A stretch of 6,977 bases of DNA. Source: Synergistota bacterium (GTDB taxonomy: Bacteria; Synergistota; JAGHAJ01). The stretch spans positions 1 to 6,977 of the forward strand of contig JAGHAJ010000068.1 in the NCBI GenBank assembly GCA_021161545.1. The letters run 5' to 3'. Of this stretch, positions 5,031-5,504 are shown one piece after another (positions within the stretch are counted from its first letter, which is position 1; each line of letters starts with the position of its first letter). The position numbers were made by a program, and so were the translations under genes. The notes under the pieces are model-generated. The model did no database searches, was not told the DNA's origin, and saw only the letters and a list, made by a program, of their open reading frames with translations.

Positions 5031-5504
5031 ATGCAGTGGGGTATTGCAATAGCAGTAGGTGGAGCTGCGTTGGCTGCAGGATTGGCAGGGTCTGGTTCTG
5101 CTGTTGGTGTTGGAATAGCAGGTGAATCGGGGGCAGGGGTGCTTACCGAGGACCCGAAGAAGTTTGGTTTAGTGCTTTTACTTCAGGCTTTGCCCGGTAC
5201 GCAGGGTATTTATGGGCTTTTGGCGGCATTTCTCATTATAAATAAGATAGGACTTTTGGGTGGAACGCTTGCAAACCTGAGTATCGAGCAGGGGATAGCT
5301 ATTGCATGTGCTGCACTTCCCATTGCAATAGTTGGGCTTATCTCTGGTATATCGCAGGGTAAGACATCTGCATCCTGTATCCAGCTAATAGCTAAGAGAC
5401 CGGAAGAAGCAGGTAAGGCTATAATCTTGCCAGCTATGGTCGAAACATACGCAGTCTTGGGTCTACTTATGACGGTGCTCTTACTTAATGGTATTAAGCT
5501 GTAG
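5031..5504 (+). CDS. ntpK: V/A-type ATP synthase subunit K (duplicated proteolipid, rotor ring)
   Basis: A 157-residue membrane protein made of two fused helical hairpins (four membrane helices at about 4-30, 46-73, 86-110 and 130-155), the form found in Enterococcus hirae NtpK (156 residues) rather than the single-hairpin subunit of Thermus. The subunits form the membrane ring that turns as ions pass. The essential carboxylate is E138 in [10 protein letters not shown]; the matching place in the first hairpin holds Q58 in LPGTQGIYG, so there is one carboxylate per four helices. All side chains known to coordinate Na+ in E. hirae NtpK have counterparts: L54, T57, Q58, Y61, Q109 (SGISQGK) and E138. 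This suggests sodium coupling, an inference from homology. The gene sits 14 bases after subunit I, in the same operon. Confidence 0.96.

Follow-up and report, generated by a model that had tools for sequence, protein, structure and literature searches.

A probable Na+-type V/A-ATPase with an NtpK-like rotor, and a second V/A-ATPase with a predicted proton-type rotor, in a Synergistota genome

The rotor subunit (subunit K) described here is of a known Na+ type that is nearly universal in Synergistota, and it very probably belongs to an NtpK-type V/A rotary ATPase that works reversibly and is coupled to Na+. The window, that is, the whole stretch of 6,977 nucleotides that was analyzed, is one contig (C206) of a 1.58-Mb, 288-contig Synergistota bacterium assembly with 82% completeness and 3.2% contamination. 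Taken alone, the K motif does no more than confirm that the lineage has the common Na+-type rotor. The part worth following is its coexistence with a predicted proton-type rotor across half of the phylum: nearly all Synergistota genomes have the Na+-type ring, and roughly one in two also encodes a second V/A-ATPase whose rotor is predicted to be of the proton type.

The features of the window that bear on the ATPase are the following.

1791–2645, forward strand: HDOD-domain signalling protein, directly upstream of the ATPase operon
2697–3023, forward strand: putative V/A-ATPase peripheral-stalk subunit G/H (ntpF/ahaH-like), 108 aa; weak matches to Pfam V-ATPase_G_2 and TIGR02926 (AhaH), both below cut-off
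3010–5016, forward strand: subunit I (stator a), 668 aa; PF01496, E = 1.4e-21, and 8wci_P, E = 1.4e-66
5031–5504, forward strand: subunit K, four-helix rotor proteolipid with one predicted Na+ site, 157 aa; NF005124, NtpK alignment, and AlphaFold2 (AF2) model superposed on a PDB structure
5190–5216, forward strand: helix-2 ion-site motif LPGTQGIYG (L54, T57, Q58, and Y61), from alignments of NtpK and relatives
5343–5363, forward strand: helix-3 ion-site motif SGISQGK (Q109), from the same alignments
5436–5453, forward strand: helix-4 ion-site motif MVETYA (carboxylate E138), from the same alignments
5520–6098, forward strand: subunit E (peripheral stalk), 192 aa; PF01991, E = 3.4e-12
6112–6977, forward strand: subunit C (d/AC39), truncated by the contig end; PF01992, E = 7.4e-36

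The subunit G/H gene is placed at the head of the operon, as in the genome GBS-1. The end of the window overlaps another contig (C255, L090) on which the operon continues, the gene order being G-I-K-E-C in the window and C-F-A-B on the second contig. Subunit D was absent from the matches in this 82%-complete assembly; GBS-1 has two. Subunit I has arginines (R578 and R636) at the positions of NtpI R573 and R629, which we take to be the functional arginines of NtpI.

The initial annotation had assigned six Na+-site residues to K by analogy with Enterococcus hirae NtpK, and both alignment and structural superposition confirm these positions. Using phmmer, K matched NtpK (2bl2) with E = 2.3e-35, and a separate pairwise alignment showed 52% identity over 143 columns; in both, L54, T57, Q58, Y61, Q109, and E138 pair one-to-one with NtpK L61, T64, Q65, Y68, Q110, and E139. 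Against the curated NtpK-type family NF005124, residues 3–156 scored 185.2 bits (cut-off 127). An AF2 model of the K monomer (pLDDT 94.6, built from 31 sequences) superposed on 2bl2 with Z = 22.7 and an rmsd of 1.6 Å over 149 residues, model residues 1–155 lying on chain residues 8–156. The Foldseek TM-score of the model was 0.89, and the next structural matches were eukaryotic V-ATPase c rings with Z of 20 and below. This structure-based alignment, which had been proposed as the check that could overturn the assignment, left the site residues in place, and the structural and sequence offsets from K to NtpK agree (+7 before the loop and +1 after it). By its model and superposition, K is a fusion of two hairpins that share one carboxylate, and the pairwise alignment puts G56 where the carboxylate of hairpin 1 would sit; the annotated count of one site per four-helix subunit is thus correct as regards the carboxylate.

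The aligned set comprises the window K, NtpK, and 80 relatives, with Synergistota, Atribacteria, Firmicutes, and Saganbacteria among the latter; T57, Q58, Y61, Q109, and E138 are invariant in all 82 sequences, and L54 is kept in 80. All 30 Synergistota K sequences inspected retain the ligand set, and a K-type profile match was found in 169 of 185 Synergistota genomes. Judged from these alignments, the ligand set in K is inherited and not a product of chance; given its invariance and the spread of K through the phylum, it is not special to this genome, and Na+ coupling can be regarded as a property of the family. The underlying ligand logic has already been published (Mulkidjanian et al. 2008, PMC2359735).

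Three features together support Na+ coupling of the window enzyme well and make it highly probable: the complete set of ligands, the NtpK-like fold, and subunit I arginines that match those of NtpI. We infer that coupling is to Na+ in vivo as well. In the mechanism that we propose, each four-helix K would bind one Na+ through E138, Q109, T57, Q58, and the backbone carbonyl of L54, with Y61 steadying E138, and the K ring would carry Na+ past the two subunit I arginines as ATP synthesis or hydrolysis proceeds in the A3B3 head.

The likeness to the E. hirae V-type Na+-ATPase (2BL2 and 8WCI) extends over the four-helix K with one carboxylate and the six site residues, the fold, both stator arginines, and, for all but subunit D among the matches, the V/A subunit set. 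The window enzyme differs in that it comes from Synergistota, and in its genomic setting: a second V/A-ATPase is encoded beside it, and the search for F-type α and β subunits gave none (the fifth PF00006 match looks like Rho), whereas an F-type enzyme is present in E. hirae (PMC2359735, Table 1).

The second V/A-ATPase lies on contig C197 (L004:1-4919) of the same assembly, in the order I'-K'-F-E-A-B, with the following rotor subunit.

L004:3967-4401, reverse strand: K', 144 aa, with one recognisable rotor hairpin that carries E127

In the alignment, V98 of K' occupies the position of NtpK Q110, and G128 and I129 occupy those of T64 and Q65. Across 29 Synergistota K' sequences (L134-L162), E127 with G128 and an Ile or Val at 129 were each present in 29/29, and V98 in 27/27 of those aligned there. 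Predicted Na+ enzymes are all polar at the Q65 position, and predicted H+ enzymes all have Leu, Ile, or Val (PMC2359735). By this rule, K', aliphatic at the Q65 position and lacking Gln at that of Q110, is predicted to be a proton-type rotor, and the ATPase on C197 most likely uses H+. K' resembles the subunit K type of Thermus thermophilus (6QUM and 5GAR), a proton-type subunit that shares a homologous rotor hairpin with the window K but has a single hairpin, with L and F in place of Q58 and Y61. For K', AF2 gave a model of low quality (pLDDT 60), which was left out of this reading.

With matches taken at E below 1e-20 and counted by hand from match tables, K' occurs in 97 of the 185 Synergistota genomes, in 91 of them together with a Na+-type K; within family f2, which includes GBS-1, three of four genomes have K'. 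Relatives of K' are in GBS-1 and Thermovirga (46–50% identity), where the second operons read I-K'-F-E-A-B-D, with the C gene elsewhere, and D-G-C-I-K'-F-E-A-B, respectively. The idea of a second ATPase that lacks subunit C was rejected, as Thermovirga has C within the operon and GBS-1 has a second C gene (L193:4427-5461). The latter, presumed to serve the second V/A-ATPase, stands alone away from the operon, and the gene immediately downstream of it (1165 aa) resembles reverse gyrase. The presence of two V-type enzymes in one bacterium has already been reported for Tepidanaerobacter (PMC4374699). No paper directly on paired Na+ and H+ V/A-ATPases in Synergistota was found in a search that reached few subscription papers.

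Other parts of the genome point to a Na+ circuit. Contig C249 encodes the β subunit of a Na+-translocating decarboxylase (TIGR01109, 501 bits, cut-off 190), together with an oadG-family subunit above cut-off, a biotin carrier, an adjacent methylmalonyl-CoA epimerase, and an mmdA-like subunit that scores 908 bits, under its cut-off of 998.8. We read this set as a predicted Na+-translocating decarboxylase of the methylmalonyl-CoA type. Two further contigs, C46 (L128) and C187 (L120), each carry an Mrp-antiporter module joined to NuoB/hydrogenase-small-subunit-like genes (Mbh/Mbs-like); GBS-1 gave one Proton_antipo_M match only, against two Mrp modules in this small genome. In Pyrococcus furiosus, an Mrp/hydrogenase-like layout exports Na+ for a Na+-dependent A1AO ATP synthase, so that such modules, exemplified by its MBH, can feed an A/V-type enzyme (PMC8415708). 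P. furiosus is archaeal, and the present genome adds the decarboxylase Na+ pump and the second, proton-type V/A-ATPase. With the decarboxylase and two Mrp-linked Mbh-like modules, a Na+ gradient could be built without the window ATPase, which keeps ATP synthesis from Na+ a live option. No RnfC above cut-off was found in the genome; a weak match on C249 adjoins the biotin-carrier gene. A membrane pyrophosphatase on contig C136 (L129:2777-4735) contains the motif GNTTAA of the K+-dependent type; its NCBIfam name is sodium-translocating, but by E-value the solved chains nearest to it are H+ pumps from plants.

Regarding the direction of the window enzyme, the initial annotation had argued that one site per four helices favours ATP-driven pumping or work at a low ion-motive force. 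We rejected this step from a single-site four-helix K to pumping, since the E. hirae enzyme, with the same type of site, makes ATP (PMC12018189). Its ring is built of ten K subunits with one site each, which gives 10/3 = 3.3 Na+ per ATP (measured, 3.2), and the enzyme is reversible, with ATP synthesis at high sodium motive force (PMC12018189). The ring of the Acetobacterium woodii synthase has the same ion/ATP ratio (PMC7793690). As described in PMC9503626 from Litty and Muller 2020, the Na+ A1AO enzyme of Eubacterium callanderi works as an ATP synthase coupled to Na+; it is encoded in a nine-gene bacterial V/A-type operon, and its c subunit is of the V type. Na+ coupling is biochemically shown there and predicted for the window enzyme, and the two are likened by description. 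Direction is set by the size of the ion-motive force relative to the ATP potential, not by the ion-site motif.

The window enzyme may nevertheless work mainly by pumping Na+ at the expense of ATP, as its E. hirae counterpart does in vivo, with the proton-type V/A-ATPase making the ATP. We hold this only tentatively. The nearest solved relative is indeed the E. hirae pump, and a second V/A-ATPase, with one carboxylate per rotor hairpin, is available as a synthase; however, the reversibility of the E. hirae enzyme itself (PMC12018189) and the primary Na+ exporters already encoded in the genome speak against it. Moreover, about 78 of the 169 Synergistota genomes with K show no K' ring, and in those K cannot be just the pumping half of a pair with a K' synthase. 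Given the primary Na+ pumps, we consider ATP synthesis by the window enzyme at least as plausible as pumping. Nor can the energy metabolism of the host be read from the K gene alone, as had been hoped, because the same assembly has a second V/A-ATPase with a proton-type rotor.

That many Synergistota run Na+-type and H+-type V/A-ATPases in opposite directions, one synthesizing and one pumping ATP-driven, is a speculation that we regard as rather unlikely; if it were true, the shared ATP pool would exchange energy between the Na+ and H+ gradients. Wherever one cell has both enzymes, the natural pair offers a setting for the old question of what determines V/A-ATPase direction and ion choice.

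The C197 operon could be a binning contaminant, leaving the host with the Na+ enzyme alone, and the 3.2% contamination of the bin, the shortness of C197, which has no flanking genes, and its G+C content (39.6%, compared with 42.8% for the window) are consistent with this. Yet its tetranucleotide correlation with the window (0.55) is about like that of other bin contigs (0.58–0.59), and the occurrence of K' relatives in GBS-1 and Thermovirga and of K' in 97/185 genomes of the phylum argues for a native origin, so we judge contamination unlikely as the source.

That the window ring couples to H+ despite its motif is highly improbable: Na+-type rings are able to translocate H+ in the absence of Na+ (PMC2359735), but all ligands are present and conserved across relatives, including Q58, where predicted H+-type ATPases are aliphatic (PMC2359735). 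For the annotated statement that the enzyme moves Na+ rather than H+, the ligand set, fold, and stator arginines thus uphold Na+ coupling, and the exclusivity falls, H+ translocation being possible without Na+ (PMC2359735).

Two further observations were made. Residues 1–72 of K' form a poorly conserved N-terminal extension with two predicted helices, which often finishes, immediately ahead of the conserved hairpin, with an A-x-A-like stretch (LAAE, AFAQ); on this basis, cleavage of a two-helix precursor may yield the mature K' rotor subunit. In the window, positions 559–1590 on the reverse strand encode a 343-aa protein for which a Pfam search gave no family above cut-off. It has several Asp-rich EF-hand-like repeats (DMNGNG, DIDGDG, and DFNGDK) and resembles the calcium-binding part of large proteins that bacteria secrete, here as a putative standalone protein.
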